Of a DNA stretch of 6,078 bases, positions 1,633 through 6,078 are shown piece by piece. Source of the stretch: Planctomycetota bacterium. GTDB taxonomy: Bacteria; Planctomycetota; PUPC01; DSUN01. Position numbers and translations under genes: made by a program. The stretch lies in the NCBI GenBank assembly GCA_016872875.1, contig VGYW01000480.1, positions 1 to 6,078 of the forward strand, written 5' to 3'. Under the pieces are notes generated by a model that saw nothing but the letters and a program-made list of their open reading frames with translations, was not told where the DNA came from and did not search any database. Every line of letters starts with the position of its first letter. The first letter of the stretch is position 1.

Positions 1633-2658
1633 ATGGCTCAGAGAGGCATCGTTCCCGGGAACTATGGCGCGCTCTTGCGACAGGTCAAAGAGCGCGTCAG
1701 AGCAGCGCAACTGGCCGCGCTCCGTCGCGTGAATAAGGAACTCATCAGTCTGTACTGGGACATCGGCCAGATGATCGTGTCGCAGCAGAAGAAGCAGGGG
1801 TGGGGGAAGTTCGTGGTGGAACGCCTGGCGCGGGACCTCCAGGCGGAGTTCCCCGGAATCCGCGGCTTCTCCGCTCGCAACATCTGGTACATGCGGAACC
1901 TCTATGTGACCTATGCCGCTAACGAAAAACTGCAATTGATAATTGCAGAAATAGGCTGGACCCAGAACGTGGTCATCATGGAGAGGTGCAAGGACGAGTT
2001 GGAGCGGGAGTTCTATCTGCGCATGACGCGGAGATTCGGCTGGACCACGAATGTCCTCATCCACCAGATCGAGAACCAGAGCTACGAGAAGACGCTGCTT
2101 GGCCAGACGAACTTCGGCCGCACATTGCCGCCCGCCCTGCGGGCGCAGGCCAAGCTGGCCGTCAAGGATGAGTACACCTTCGACTTCCTCGAGTTGGGGG
2201 AGGAGCACTCCGAACGCGAGCTGGAGAGGGCGTTGCTCTCGCGGGTCGAGGGCTTCCTGCGCGAGATGGGTGGCCTGTTCGCCTTCGTCGGCGGCCAGTT
2301 CCGCCTCGAGGTCAAAGGCCGCGAGTATTTCATTGACCTCTTGCTCTTCCATCGCCGGCTCTCCTGCCTCGTGGCCATTGACCTGAAGGTCGGCGAGTTC
2401 GAGCCGGAGTTCGTCGGCAAGATGCAGTTCTACCTTTCGGCCCTCGATGACCTCGTGCGGCTGCCCAGCGAGAAACCGTCCATCGGCATCATCCTGTGCA
2501 AGTCCAAGGACCGCACTTTCGTCGAATATGCGCTCCGCGACACGGCCAAGCCGATCGGCGTGACGTCTTATCGAATCGTGAAAAGGCTCCCGCGCGAGCT
2601 GCACGGCCAGCTTCCGCCCCCGGAGGTGATCCGGAAGCTCCTGGAGGACTCCGAATGA
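1633..2658 (+). CDS. DUF1016/YhcG-family PD-(D/E)XK nuclease
   Basis: The protein has 341 residues, the usual family size. The N-terminal DUF1016 domain (about 8-170) shows YWDIGQMI (41-48), GWGKFVVERLARDLQ (56-70), FSARNIWYMR (79-88), IGWTQNVVIMERCKD (107-121) and FGWTTNVLIHQI (135-146). The C-terminal YhcG nuclease domain (about 180-330) shows a Glu-rich helix (ERELE, 194-198), FVGGQ (218-222), YFIDLLLF with Asp235, AIDLK with Asp250 and Lys252, and GKMQFYL (262-268). Asp235, Asp250 and Lys252 fit the PD-(D/E)XK active site, which looks intact. No signal peptide is seen, so it should be cytoplasmic and act on DNA. The biological role of the family is unsettled; it often appears as a solitary accessory gene or near restriction systems. 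It sits oddly between two secreted-enzyme genes and overlaps the next one by four bases. An AT-rich stretch at 1921-1953 encodes NEKLQLIIAEI with two ATA codons, rare for this window. Confidence 0.92.
   Translation: MAQRGIVPGNYGALLRQVKERVRAAQLAALRRVNKELISLYWDIGQMIVSQQKKQGWGKFVVERLARDLQAEFPGIRGFSARNIWYMRNLYVTYAANEKLQLIIAEIGWTQNVVIMERCKDELEREFYLRMTRRFGWTTNVLIHQIENQSYEKTLLGQTNFGRTLPPALRAQAKLAVKDEYTFDFLELGEEHSERELERALLSRVEGFLREMGGLFAFVGGQFRLEVKGREYFIDLLLFHRRLSCLVAIDLKVGEFEPEFVGKMQFYLSALDDLVRLPSEKPSIGIILCKSKDRTFVEYALRDTAKPIGVTSYRIVKRLPRELHGQLPPPEVIRKLLEDSE
1930..1948. repeat. 19-base dyad, copy 2 (inside the nuclease gene)
   Basis: CTGCAA-N7-TTGCAG with spacer TTGATAA; including the spacer the arms extend to a perfect eight-base pairing, CTGCAATT with AATTGCAG. 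It is flanked by AAAA and AA, as in copy 1, 412 bases upstream. It encodes residues 100-106 of the nuclease without breaking the family pattern. Confidence 0.5.
2643..2648 (+). promoter_or_regulatory. Ribosome binding site of the beta-helix gene, inside the nuclease gene
   Basis: GGAGGA lies six bases before the ATG at 2655, within the codons for the last residues of the nuclease (LEDSE). Together with the ATGA overlap it indicates coupled translation and fixes the start of the third gene. Confidence 0.8.
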
Positions 2659-5600
2659 ACGCGCGCCCGTGGCCCCTTCTGTTGGCCTTGTTCCTTGCTC
2701 AGGAGGCCCTGGCCGCCATGAAGCCCCGCGTGATTGAGACCAAGTTCCCCACCGACGACGTGGTGATCGCCTCGCTGGTCGTCGAGGCGCCGAAGGATGG
2801 CGTGGGCGACGCCACGGGGGCGATTCAGGCGGCGATTGACGAGGCCGCCGCCGCGGGCGGAGCCGTCGTCTTCCTCCCCCCAGGCCGCTACCGCCTCGCC
2901 GGCCGCCTCACCCTCAAGGAAGGCGTCACCCTCCGAGGAGACTTCAACCCGTTCGTAGTGCGGCCTTCAGGCCGTAAGGAGGAGGACGGGCTGAAGCCCG
3001 CACTACAAACAGCGACGATTCTCATGCCGACGGCGGACAAAGGGAATGCCGACGGCCCGCCCGCCATCACGATGGAGCGCGGCACGGGCCTCACCAATCT
3101 GGCCATCTGGTATCCCGACCAGGACCCGATGAAGATCGTCCCCTACCCCTGGACCATCCGCACCTCGGAGAAGGTCACTGGCAACAACATCACCATCCAG
3201 AGCGTCGCCCTCATCAACCCCTACCAAGCCATCAAGATCGGCCCCGAGTGGAACGAGCTTCACACCATCCGTCACATCCATGGCACTCCGCTCAAGGCCG
3301 GCATCTGGATCGATACCACGACGGACATTGGGCGGGTGCGCGCCGTGAGTTTCCTGCCCGATTGGTGGCAACGGTCGGGACTGCCCGGCTCCCCCACGAC
3401 AGACGAAGCAAAGGCGGCGCTCCGCCGCGTCCTCGGTAAGGATGGGGTCGGTCTGGAGATGCGCCGTTCGGACTGGGAGTACATCTCCGATAGCGCCATC
3501 AGCGACTACGCCATTGGGGTCTTGGTTCGTCAGGGCCAGCAGGGGACAGCTAACGCAGTGATCGCCTCGTCAGTTCTTGCCGGCGGCACAGCTTTGAGAC
3601 TGGAGGGCCTCAACGAGGTCGGGCTCTCTGTTACAGGTTGTGTTCTGGGTGGACTGGAACACGCGGTGCATGCCCCCGCCGCCTTCAATTCCACTGTGCA
3701 GTTCCAGGACTGCGCCCTAAGTGGCCGGGTGCGTCTCGACGGGCCGGGCACCCTGACGCTACAAGCGGGCCTGCTGCCGCCTATGCCGGGCGGCGGGAGA
3801 GGCATCGTGGCGAGCAGCGGCCAAATCTCGGCACTGAACTGCACTGTCGCCGCACCGGGGTTCCCGGCCCTGCTGGGCGAAGGCGTCCGGCGCGCGCGAA
3901 TGCTGTGGAATCCGTTCGACCCAGAGCCGGCCGTGAAGAAGGTAAGCGCCGGCGATGTCATGATGGCCACATACCCGCTTGTTGCTACAGGCCATCCCGT
4001 ACCCGTGCAGGTCATGGAATTGCTTGGAGGTCGCCTGTCAACCCGCAAGCCCCTGCTGCAGAATCCGCGGCTGTTTGTGGTCACCGGTTTCGGCGCGGGG
4101 GCCGGGGAACAGGACAACACCGCGGCGTTTGCGAAGGCGCTGGAGGCGGCGCGGAAGGCGGGCGGGGGGACGGTGTATGTGCCCGCGGGGAACTATCGCT
4201 TCGCGGGCGAAATCGTGGTGCCGTCGGGGGTGGAGCTTCGCGGCATCTTCGATGTGCCCCACCACACGGTCTCGGGCGGCTCGGTGCTGATGCCGACGAG
4301 TGGCAAGGGCAAGGCCGACGGGACGCCGTTCATCCGCCTGGAGGCGAAGTCGGGGCTGCGGGGGCTGACCATCTGGTATCCCGACCAGGACCTGCGGAGC
4401 ATCCAGCCCTATCCCTGGGCGATTCAGAGCCTGGGGCCGGGGTGCTGGCTCGTGGACGTGACGCTCGGCAATGCCTACCAGGGGGCGGATTTCTGGACGC
4501 ATCCCAGCGACGGCCACGTCATCCGCTACCTCGCGGGCGCGGTGTTCAAGCGCGGACTCTTCGTCTCCAAGTGCAAGGGCGACGGATGGGTCGAGGACGT
4601 GCAGTTCAATCCCCACTACTGCGTCCGCGTGCATCCGAGCCTGGCAAGCCCCTACACCGAGGGGAAGAGCATCCAGGGGGTCATCGAGTATCAGCGGGCG
4701 AACCTGGAGGGGATCGTGTTCGGCCGCTGCGAGAACGAGCACGTGCGCGGCACCTTCCTCTACGCCGCCTACGACGGCATCGCGTTCCGAGACGACGGGG
4801 GCGTCGGGGCGAAGGCCACGGTGATCAACCACGGGACGGACACGGGGAGCCGCTGCGCCGTGCTGGAGGGGAGCGCGAACGTGACGTTCATCAACGCCCA
4901 ACTCGTGCCCCTCGGGGCGCACGAGGTGGGGGCGATCATCGTGGGCGACTCGTTCAAGGGCAAGGCGAGCTTCTTCAACACGCAGATATGGGGCGGGAAG
5001 ACGAGCGGCATCATCGCTGGCCAGGGCGACGTGGTGATTCAGGGCGTGAACACCCTCTGCGGCCCCTTCATCCTCAAGGGCGGCCGCGTGGCCATCGAAA
5101 ACGCCCACTGGACCCGCGATCTTCCCTGCCACATCCGCGTCGAGCCGACGGTCGAGAGCGCCCGCCTCATCGCCAACCTGGCGCCGAATGAGTTGAAGGT
5201 TGAGAATGGGGCGGGGGGCAAGCTCTACGCGCGCTGCAACTCCCTGGCCATTCCATCGGTGGCGGGCCGCCTCACTTTCAAGACCAGCTTTGAAGAGGGC
5301 GAGCCGCAGCCCGCGGCGGACACGGTAGCGAAGCAGGGCGGCGGCATCAAGCGCGTGAGCAAGCCCCAATGCCGCGTGGCCGAGACCGAGGCCAAGACCG
5401 GCAAACGCGCCCTCCGCGTGTCGGGCGTCGCCGACGACCCGGCATACTCCCACGTCTACTTCAAGCTCTTCGGCGAAGCGATTGGCGTCGCCCCCGATTC
5501 CGTCCTGACCTACTGGATTCGCCCAGCGAACGAGCGAGGCCGCTGCGTGGGCCTCGACCTCCTCTTCTCTAACGGCTCGGTCCTCCGCGATTCGCAGGCC

Positions 5601-6078
5601 AGGACCGCTGACGGCCAGGGCGTCCACCCCGGCAACCCCAAGGGCGAGGTCGGCAAATGGACGAAGCTCGCCATCCCGCTCGGCCAGACCCACGCGGGCA
5701 AGGTGGTTGCCGCCATCATGGCTGCCTACGACAGCCGCTCTGGCGGCGGCCCCTTCGAGGCCTGGCTCGACGACCTCGCCATCGAGTCCGCCCAGCCCGC
5801 GGCCCCCGTCGCCATCAGCGCCAAGCCCGCGGGCGGCGTCTTCAAGGGCAAGGTCGAGATCGCCCTCTCCCCACAGCCTTCCCCCCTCTCCCCTGGGGAG
5901 AGGGACGGGGTGAGGGTGCCTTCCGCCCAAGGCACCGTCGTCCGCTACACCCTCGACGGCCTCTCGCCCACGTCCGACTCGCCCCGCTACGAGAAGCCGA
6001 TTGTCCTCGACCAGCCTGGCCTCTGGGAGCTTCGCTTCGCGGCCTTCGGCCCCGACGGCCGCCTGGCGAGCCGCGTCT
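2655..6078 (+). CDS. Large secreted protein with two pectate-lyase-superfamily beta-helix modules (3' end missing)
   Basis: The frame is open from the ATG at 2655 to the window edge: 1141 full codons, no stop. Residues 1-20 form a signal peptide (Leu-rich core, likely cut after A-L-A). Module 1 (about 36-460) opens in the style of the Pectate_lyase_3 family: GDATGAIQAAID, then VVFLPPGRY. Module 2 (about 472-855) repeats this: QDNTAAF, then VYVPAGNYRF. Both carry IWYPDQD (151-157 and 573-579) followed closely by PYPW, showing internal duplication. Residues about 872-1045 look like a galactose-binding or CIA30-type beta-sandwich (LTYWIRP, KWTKLAIPL, AWLDDLAIES). Residues about 1060-1141 resemble the chitobiase C-terminal/Fn3-associated domain (VRYTLDG, SPRYEKPI). 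Polysaccharide lyase, hydrolase or binding activity is the inference; catalytic residues cannot be assigned. Palindromic repeats are translated in frame at residues about 99-118 and 1077-1087. The gene overlaps the nuclease stop (ATGA). Confidence 0.9.
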   Translation, partial: MNARPWPLLLALFLAQEALAAMKPRVIETKFPTDDVVIASLVVEAPKDGVGDATGAIQAAIDEAAAAGGAVVFLPPGRYRLAGRLTLKEGVTLRGDFNPFVVRPSGRKEEDGLKPALQTATILMPTADKGNADGPPAITMERGTGLTNLAIWYPDQDPMKIVPYPWTIRTSEKVTGNNITIQSVALINPYQAIKIGPEWNELHTIRHIHGTPLKAGIWIDTTTDIGRVRAVSFLPDWWQRSGLPGSPTTDEAKAALRRVLGKDGVGLEMRRSDWEYISDSAISDYAIGVLVRQGQQGTANAVIASSVLAGGTALRLEGLNEVGLSVTGCVLGGLEHAVHAPAAFNSTVQFQDCALSGRVRLDGPGTLTLQAGLLPPMPGGGRGIVASSGQISALNCTVAAPGFPALLGEGVRRARMLWNPFDPEPAVKKVSAGDVMMATYPLVATGHPVPVQVMELLGGRLSTRKPLLQNPRLFVVTGFGAGAGEQDNTAAFAKALEAARKAGGGTVYVPAGNYRFAGEIVVPSGVELRGIFDVPHHTVSGGSVLMPTSGKGKADGTPFIRLEAKSGLRGLTIWYPDQDLRSIQPYPWAIQSLGPGCWLVDVTLGNAYQGADFWTHPSDGHVIRYLAGAVFKRGLFVSKCKGDGWVEDVQFNPHYCVRVHPSLASPYTEGKSIQGVIEYQRANLEGIVFGRCENEHVRGTFLYAAYDGIAFRDDGGVGAKATVINHGTDTGSRCAVLEGSANVTFINAQLVPLGAHEVGAIIVGDSFKGKASFFNTQIWGGKTSGIIAGQGDVVIQGVNTLCGPFILKGGRVAIENAHWTRDLPCHIRVEPTVESARLIANLAPNELKVENGAGGKLYARCNSLAIPSVAGRLTFKTSFEEGEPQPAADTVAKQGGGIKRVSKPQCRVAETEAKTGKRALRVSGVADDPAYSHVYFKLFGEAIGVAPDSVLTYWIRPANERGRCVGLDLLFSNGSVLRDSQARTADGQGVHPGNPKGEVGKWTKLAIPLGQTHAGKVVAAIMAAYDSRSGGGPFEAWLDDLAIESAQPAAPVAISAKPAGGVFKGKVEIALSPQPSPLSPGERDGVRVPSAQGTVVRYTLDGLSPTSDSPRYEKPIVLDQPGLWELRFAAFGPDGRLASRV
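2951..3010. repeat. Palindromic repeat element translated in frame within module 1
   Basis: A 24-base arm (2951-2974) is inverted at 2987-3010 with three mismatches; a 12-base centre separates them. Each arm holds its own hairpin: CGGCC-TTCA-GGCCG (2961 region) and CGGGC-TGAA-GCCCG (2987-3000). Two of the three mismatches are a C-G to G-C swap of one pair in these small hairpins, so both still fold. The unit is 60 bases, exactly 20 codons, and keeps the frame open. Module 2 lacks it at the equivalent loop. GTAGTGCGG...CTTCAG-type palindromes resemble REP-like intergenic repeats; that family link is from memory. Confidence 0.75.
3103..3126 (+). repeat. Direct repeat copy 1, marker of the module duplication
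   Basis: A 24-base stretch encoding part of A-IWYPDQD-P is identical to 4369-4392, 1266 bases (422 codons) downstream. It is the best-conserved point of the two beta-helix modules; flanking DNA is more diverged while protein similarity continues (PYPW about eight residues later). Confidence 0.8.
4369..4392 (+). repeat. Direct repeat copy 2, marker of the module duplication
   Basis: Identical over 24 bases to 3103-3126 and in the same frame, encoding T-IWYPDQD-L. Upstream similarity also aligns: LRG, then (I/V)LMPT, then ADG precede the motif in both modules. Identity down to third codon positions suggests strong constraint, a recent duplication or local gene conversion. Confidence 0.8.
5884..5916. 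repeat. C/G-rich palindromic repeat translated in frame within the Fn3-like domain
   Basis: CCCTCTCCCC (5884-5893) pairs perfectly with GGGGAGAGGG (5895-5904) around one base, followed by ACGGGGTGAGGG (5905-5916). On the other strand this reads as CCCTCACCCC plus a CCCTCTCCCC palindrome, a repeat type I recall as widespread between genes in many bacteria. Here it encodes residues of SPLSPGERDGVRV, set between the IALS strand and the VRYTLDG strand of the chitobiase/Fn3-like domain, where a loop is expected. Confidence 0.7.

Follow-up and report, generated by a model that had tools for sequence, protein, structure and literature searches.

How does a 60-base palindrome come to lie in frame within the gene of a probably secreted beta-helix protein, and what kind of element is it? 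This is the question raised by the stretch of DNA analysed here, whose whole length of 6,078 nucleotides is called the window below. Palindromes that are kept in frame inside genes are known from Rickettsia, where they are termed Rickettsia palindromic elements (RPE).

The palindrome and its host gene

The host protein matches Pfam PF12708 at 7e-22 in two stretches. Its reading frame, opened at 2655, stays open across the insert up to the end of the window, and the start of the gene overlaps the stop of the upstream gene. The features of the insert are the following.

2655..6078, + strand: host gene, cut off by the window end; its product is a pectate-lyase-like beta-helix protein with PF12708, probably secreted
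2951..3010, + strand: REP doublet (BIME/REPIN-like), at about residues 99-119 of the host protein
2955..2975, + strand: REP arm 1, with GTAG head 2955-2958, TG, stem CGGCC 2961-2965, loop TTCA 2966-2969, stem GGCCG 2970-2974 and T
2976..2985, + strand: spacer of 10 nt, which differs between carriers
2986..3006, - strand: REP arm 2, of the other type, with GTAG, TG, stem CGGGC, loop TTCA, stem GCCCG and T (read on the - strand)
2952..3008, + strand: encoded loop, residues 100-118 (FVVRPSGRKEEDGLKPALQ), a low-confidence loop in the structure model

The 60-base unit can be written GTTC-(GTAG TG CGGCC TTCA GGCCG T)-10 nt-(A CGGGC TGAA GCCCG CA CTAC)-AAAC. Its inverted arms (2951-2975 and 2986-3010) are 25 nt long each, are 88% complementary and have 10 nt between them, and each of them forms a perfect 5-bp hairpin preceded by a GTAG head and two further bases. 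This is the two-armed palindrome with a small hairpin in each arm that the original prediction had described. The arms differ at three positions, namely a C/T difference near the outer end and, as had also been noticed, a single C-G to G-C pair swap in the stem, which gives CGGCC-TTCA-GGCCG in arm 1 and CGGGC-TTCA-GCCCG in arm 2. This swap costs two mismatches in the long hairpin formed by the whole palindrome, and none in the small ones. When 2941-3020 is folded as RNA (-35.7 kcal/mol, equalled by 2 of 200 dinucleotide shuffles, z = -3.74), the favoured fold is one long hairpin in which the two swapped positions are unpaired, the two small hairpins being the alternative.

The insert contains no in-frame stop, and the paralogous second module of the same protein (GVELRGIFDVPHHTVSGGSVLMPT) lacks it in the translation, as claimed. 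A structure model covering residues 1-635 (mean pLDDT 89.5) places it as a loop between strands 91-94 and 121-125, with pLDDT below 50 at residues 102-110; such a predicted placement fits a tolerated insert.

The upstream gene (1471-2658), which ends four bases inside the beta-helix gene, codes for a YhcG/DUF1016 nuclease (PF06250, PF17761), and its own neighbour (3-1418) for a GDSL lipase-like protein with a CBM11. The window also holds a short palindrome-like pair (CTGCAA...TTGCAG) at 1514-1538 and 1926-1950, whose members are 76% alike.

An element family in a related genome

The copies of the family were counted in G002, the 8.9-Mb draft genome of a Planctomycetota relative, rather than in the genome of the window's own species; both G002 and the second genome used, G001, are drafts of untold completeness. 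The further copies that the original prediction proposed to look for were found in number. Indeed, the exact arm pattern occurs 379 times in G002 (185+194) and its reversed control not once, while none of 391 other genomes drawn from the phylum has the exact pattern. With at most one mismatch, the count in G002 is 416 (207+209; reversed control 0), and eight other genomes of the class give 3 occurrences in one genome, the reversed pattern occurring once in one other genome. A search with the 60-mer gave 69 matches at E ≤ 10 in G002 (40 of 318 candidates scored, and the two strands of one place may count twice), and 8 in G001, all of them weak (best E 0.019).

The stems were then examined with a pattern made of head and loop only (GKAGT-N6-TTYA), which demands no stem and allows only GGAG or GTAG heads. 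It was applied to 59 stretches of G002 (424 kb), 42 of which surround element places with at most one mismatch, chosen by following the contigs in order as far as C122, while the 17 others surround PF01797 matches; these last contributed 6 of the 65 element clusters. L087 overlaps L068 and is excluded from the cluster counts, and L003-L006 are excluded from the arm listing. The pattern found 124 sites, against 7, 4, 6 and 1 for four control patterns, and all five stem positions pair in 117 of them. The stem families are CGGGC, CGGCC, CTGCC, CCGCC and rarer ones, with pairs exchanged at two positions (C-G 75 and G-C 48 at one; G-C 84, T-A 19 and C-G 17 at the other). Because of this full pairing and these pair exchanges across the 124 sites, each small hairpin appears to be kept as a structure. 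The idea that the hairpins matter is thus upheld, but the swap cannot be read as a compensation proper to the window's copy: all 32 outward CGGSC doublets examined join one CGGCC arm to one CGGGC arm, so that the swap is a fixed feature of the doublet.

The 65 clusters comprise 40 simple inverted doublets (35 outward and 5 inward), 18 single arms and 7 larger or same-direction groups, and the spacers of the outward doublets vary from 0 to 34 nt. The unit therefore has what defines a REP doublet, BIME or REPIN, that is two inverted REPs acting as one unit. It also has the traits of the GTAG class of REPs, namely a stem-loop 20-40 nt long headed by an unpaired GTAG-like motif, GTAG itself in both window arms, and in G002 a high copy number, mostly between genes. 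In most families of the class more than 90% of the members have a GTAG head, which is not so in G002, where the 117 full-stem sites have GGAG more commonly (77) than GTAG (40).

Homologues with and without the insert

Among 7989 proteins scored, 330 beta-helix homologues were found, and the best 120 of these 330 were listed; 118 of them cover the insert site, the records of P0009 and P0025 being those that do not. The insert peptide is present in 4 of these 118, P0001 (the window's own), P0002, P0003 and P0019, and absent from the other 114. The aligned segment has 66 residues in the four carriers, 57-58 in P0004-P0007, P0010 and P0011, and 50-54 in 91 of the 118. The net gain is thus about 8-16 residues, and not the 20 codons first supposed, although the stop-free frame is as described; since it is smaller than 20 residues, native loop residues must have been replaced or lost. 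The insert-free loops are too diverged to reveal an empty site. All four carriers share the frame, the spacer length and the flanks (GDFxP...TATILMP); their three spacer residues vary, and their arm residues hardly do. The record of P0009 has MPTADKG as its first residues, directly after the place of the insert; the gene may have been broken there, or given a wrong start. Its longest contig, of 5,973,921 bases, has the length given for the carrier P0019.

Six loci came out of a scan of genome contigs, and two of these are close Planctomycetota orthologues. L002, in G002, is about 80% identical and has the palindrome at the same place, with the peptide of P0002; an additional copy of the element precedes the embedded one by about 420 bases and lies before the likely gene start. 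L001, in G001, lacks the insert. Orthologues free of the insert, which the original prediction called for, thus exist at both the protein and the DNA level. The contrary case, the same peptide encoded without a palindrome, was not seen, L002 being the only other carrier whose DNA is readable. The protein search matched 1 of 9 genomes in the class of G002, G002 itself, and 8 of 397 in the class of G001, none closer than G001; in viral contigs, no beta-helix relatives were found.

The host gene contains another palindrome.

5866..5930, + strand: second, unrelated palindromic repeat, in frame near the end of the host gene; core 5884-5904

Its core reads CCCTCTCCCC-T-GGGGAGAGGG, and it has 69 matches in G002 and 2 in G001 (E ≤ 0.01). 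It is present in P0001 and P0002, and P0003 and P0005 have a different insert at the same place; L001, which is without the first insert, has a sequence like it near the end of the same gene.

Copies inside genes

Whether a cluster lies within a gene was judged in two ways: by a codon-usage model trained on the fetched G002 stretches, and by the reading phase on both sides. With the first, 17 of 65 clusters lie within an open frame and have coding-like sequence before and after them. With the second, 15 of 65 (in 12 frames) have the same phase on both sides, none has a changed phase and 50 are not within a gene, while 3000 random positions in the same stretches gave 1363 with the same phase, 12 shifted and 1625 others. 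From these phase counts, element copies fall in genes about half as often as random points do, and where they do so they keep the frame. Twelve of the 15 in-gene clusters are CGGSC and three are of sister types. The in-gene share is 8/18 for single arms and 4/35 for outward doublets, so the full doublet of the window is the rarer kind.

The beta-helix orthologue accounts for one of the 13 host frames. In the remaining 12, Pfam identified GH123 (two), GH38, GH116, GH2, CBM9 (one alone), a pyruvate-formate-lyase-like glycyl radical enzyme, an M28 peptidase and a PF00144 protein; 3 of the 12 have no Pfam match, and their coding status is less sure. The homologue listings comprise the best 120 of 330, 239 and 6714 proteins, and at the insert site the residues were compared in 16, 14 and 14 of the 121 rows, and the lengths in the others. 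The site has 63 residues in 112 of the 121 listed rows of the glycyl radical enzyme. The element peptide stands there three times in tandem in the G002 protein and once in P0122 and P0127; P0124 has it too, with no change in total length. The GH116 site has 40 residues in 104 of 121 listed rows, and 58-61 in the carriers among the rows compared by residue. In-frame inserts absent from orthologues, which characterise intragenic REPs, are therefore found in this family.

In the glycyl radical enzyme (L067), the loop at this site holds unrelated inserts in the homologues P0121, P0125, P0126 and P0130, which belong to different lineages, and the insert of P0130 resembles the peptide of the window's second palindrome. 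As far as protein comparison goes, this loop is one that accepts many repeats.

Origin and constraint of the embedded copy

Did the four carriers inherit one insert? A tree was built on all columns with the insert excluded, keeping 39 of 40 rows (one row of under 500 residues was dropped). It splits the carriers: its starred branches force at least two changes, and 0% of the bootstrap trees need only one. Separate insertions at one hot site, or segment exchange among paralogues, would account for this split. The carriers in the pyruvate-formate-lyase-like family are also scattered on their tree, with at least two changes forced, and other lineages have unrelated inserts in the glycyl radical loop and at the place where the window has its second insert. 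Against such separate events stand the frame, spacer length and flanks, which are identical across the four carriers, and a tree of conserved columns, in which the carriers group with P0009 (83/91 support, not starred; its record starts after the site), as is compatible with one origin. The region of residues 231-460 also weighs on the full tree. There, the twelve closest homologues are mostly about 40-60% identical and group otherwise, against about 84-98% in the second module (474-640), which suggests a mosaic or fast-changing region. Because the identities by region and the conserved-column tree point to a separate history, the scatter of the carriers on the full tree rests on this region. 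We thus consider separate events rather unlikely, if worth keeping in mind, and a single origin would be the simpler, though not proven, reading.

The other question is whether the copy has been kept for a role of its DNA or RNA, such as mRNA stability or a protein-binding site, and not merely tolerated. Between the window and L002, 15 of 16 arm residues are identical, against 1 of 3 spacer residues. Where the residue is the same, AT-ending codons agree in 6 of 7 cases in the arms, against 41 of 183 over the remainder of the gene (Fisher p = 0.001); near the insert, they agree in 7 of 29 (arms against nearby, p = 0.005). These p values are optimistic, because the test was chosen after seeing the codons. 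This retention, together with the strong fold, would speak for such a role, but it concerns seven codons in one gene pair, and the four-fold sites do not clearly differ (10/11 in the arms, 42/52 and 43/56 in the flanks). Recent exchange with other copies would moreover give the same pattern, and selection on DNA, such exchange or a young insertion could each have produced it. We therefore regard a DNA or RNA role of this copy as improbable, and prefer to see it as tolerated.

A candidate mobilising enzyme

A search for PF01797 in the two genomes gave 26 matches, 19 of them in G002. As mobilisers, these G002 genes were set aside, as 0 of 19 have a CGGSC element within about 1.5 kb (four of the loci have less than 300 bases on one side). 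The stronger ones, L083, L085, L086 and L087 (on C4, C21, C43 and C54 of G002), have on their flanks inverted repeats 21-44 bases long, whose hairpins are different ones, and several REP systems seem to coexist in this genome.

It is through a weak PF01797 match on contig C808 that the right group of RAYT genes was reached. This RAYT-like gene codes for 200 aa, and its product scores 85.1 bits against the NCBIfam REP-associated tyrosine transposase (cut-off 80). A sister-type doublet, with 4 of 5 stem pairs in each arm, lies 20 nt behind its stop; on the other side the contig ends 25 bases away, with letters that fit the start of another arm. A search with this protein gave two close relatives in G002, on C298 and C189, and in G001 only a distant one, 25% identical. 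The C298 gene is the following.

602-1201 of locus L129 (contig C298 of G002): RAYT gene, with six CGGSC arms on each side

All its arms have GGAG heads, and 11 of 12 have full stems; a RAYT gene flanked by its cognate REP is thus found in G002. The arms that flank the C189 gene, on either side, are of the CTGSC type. Against the same NCBIfam model, the C298 protein reaches 78.1 bits and the C189 protein 78.4, just under its cut-off of 80, and the former matches the solved TnpArep structure 4er8 at E 1.7e-5. The three RAYTs of G002 are 62-68% identical to each other, and the PNHYH motif is invariant in them. Another RAYT-like gene, on C47, scores 67.8 bits, under the cut-off; a single CGGCC arm follows its stop at a distance of 15 nt.

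Close RAYT relatives (E ≤ 1e-40) were found in 6 of 392 genomes of the phylum, G002 included, and among these six only G002 has the arm sequence of the window. At nine RAYT loci, GKAG-headed, TTYA-looped 5-bp hairpins were found on both sides in six, with stems that differ between RAYTs, and three are without; any such flanking hairpin is expected by chance at a rate of 0.275 per locus.

These loci bear on what kind of element the palindrome is. Inverted ends and variable spacers would fit small non-autonomous elements generally, and hence what a DDE-type insertion sequence might leave as a MITE-like remnant. That a RAYT gene lies between arrays of the very same family, and two sister RAYTs beside sister families, makes this very improbable, as does the likeness of the arm to a Marinomonas REP. 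The Marinomonas REPtron Mb has a TTTA loop and a perfect stem of 5 bp, which begins two bases behind GTAG (PMC8266576); stem length, GTAG offset and TTYA loop agree with ours, while the host phylum differs. That the insert would be an ordinary coding loop, palindromic by chance, can be dismissed for practical purposes: the element has a single copy in the window and an Rfam search of the window matched no family at gathering thresholds, but its hundreds of copies in G002 (379 exact arms), the palindromic DNA of the orthologue L002 and the RAYT gene between element arrays all contradict it.

From the copies in G002, the RAYT gene flanked by arms and the in-frame filter, we conclude that 2951-3010 is very probably a RAYT-spread REP doublet with GTAG/GGAG heads that entered a coding region and was kept there. 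The doublet family would be spread by its cognate RAYT (TnpAREP, an HUH single-strand nuclease), a role that we infer, and the doublet would be moved or copied probably as single-stranded DNA with its arms in hairpins. One copy would then have entered the beta-helix gene, with the native loop partly replaced or lost; that it lies in frame, and in a loop that links two helix strands, would explain why it was kept. The mobility of the element is thus presumed, the loop is presumably tolerated rather than useful, and the window's own genome would also hold many copies.

Comparison with known systems

GTAG REPs have been reported in, among others, the Planctomycetes-Verrucomicrobia-Chlamydiales superphylum. 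The same work describes intragenic REPs, for instance in O. terrae, and dimers or groups that encode 20-30 residues make up more than half of these inserts (PMC3733652). The family described here resembles them by its short stem-loop, GTAG-type head and inverted dimers, which are mostly intergenic and sometimes in genes. Unlike them, its G002 heads are more often GGAG, and its arms are always of two unlike types. Some GTAG-class families have variant heads (GYAG, GYRG, GTRG, GTMG, GTGG), and GGAG does not figure in the passage naming them (PMC3733652). The host genes also differ: here they code largely for polysaccharide-degrading and other enzymes, whereas DNA synthesis and repair are stressed there. 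The newness of our family relative to the 24 family consensuses of that work is judged by description. In the open-licence literature, taken by titles and abstract openings, we found no account of this REP family.

RAYT genes flanked by their own REPs are described in PMC2817692. The REP of Thioalkalivibrio HL-EbGR7 reported there (GTAGGTCGGCCTTCAGGCCGAC) has the same CGGCC-TTCA-GGCCG hairpin as arm 1 of the window, with a different linker after GTAG and different outer bases. Compared with those systems, three sister RAYT/REP pairs coexist here in one Planctomycetota genome. The REPIN, a REP doublet forming a hairpin by inverted repetition and proposed as the replicative unit (PMC3116915), shares the inverted doublet with G002; the spacers of 0-34 nt in the outward doublets of G002 and the next-neighbour distances of 71 and 110 bp in SBW25 were measured differently.

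As for the likeness to the Rickettsia elements that had been suggested, it holds in kind, both being in-frame palindromes. By description, RPE-4 and RPE-6 are assigned to the CGTC class of REPs (PMC3733652), and the head is GTAG here.

Meaning of the embedded element

REP doublets inside coding regions were already known (PMC3733652). New are this REP family, its always-unlike arms and the AT-ending arm codons that are kept more often than elsewhere, this last by a post hoc test. Here, a palindrome embedded in a protein can be linked with a candidate mobilising enzyme of a related genome. The three sister RAYTs and three sister REPs, with the carriers and non-carriers of three enzyme families, offer a natural set in which to follow the entry of REPs into genes. 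They also carry a warning, as peptides like VVRPSGR...GLKPALQT in metagenomic proteins can be REP products and not domains. A broader proposal, which we advance tentatively and hold to be less probable than not by a clear measure, is that, in this Planctomycetota lineage, several RAYT-driven REP families land regularly in exposed loops of enzymes, polysaccharide-degrading and others, where they replace native residues, the embedded copies being homogenised or selected as DNA hairpins. If this were true, a mobile palindrome would keep shaping protein loops over species-level divergence.
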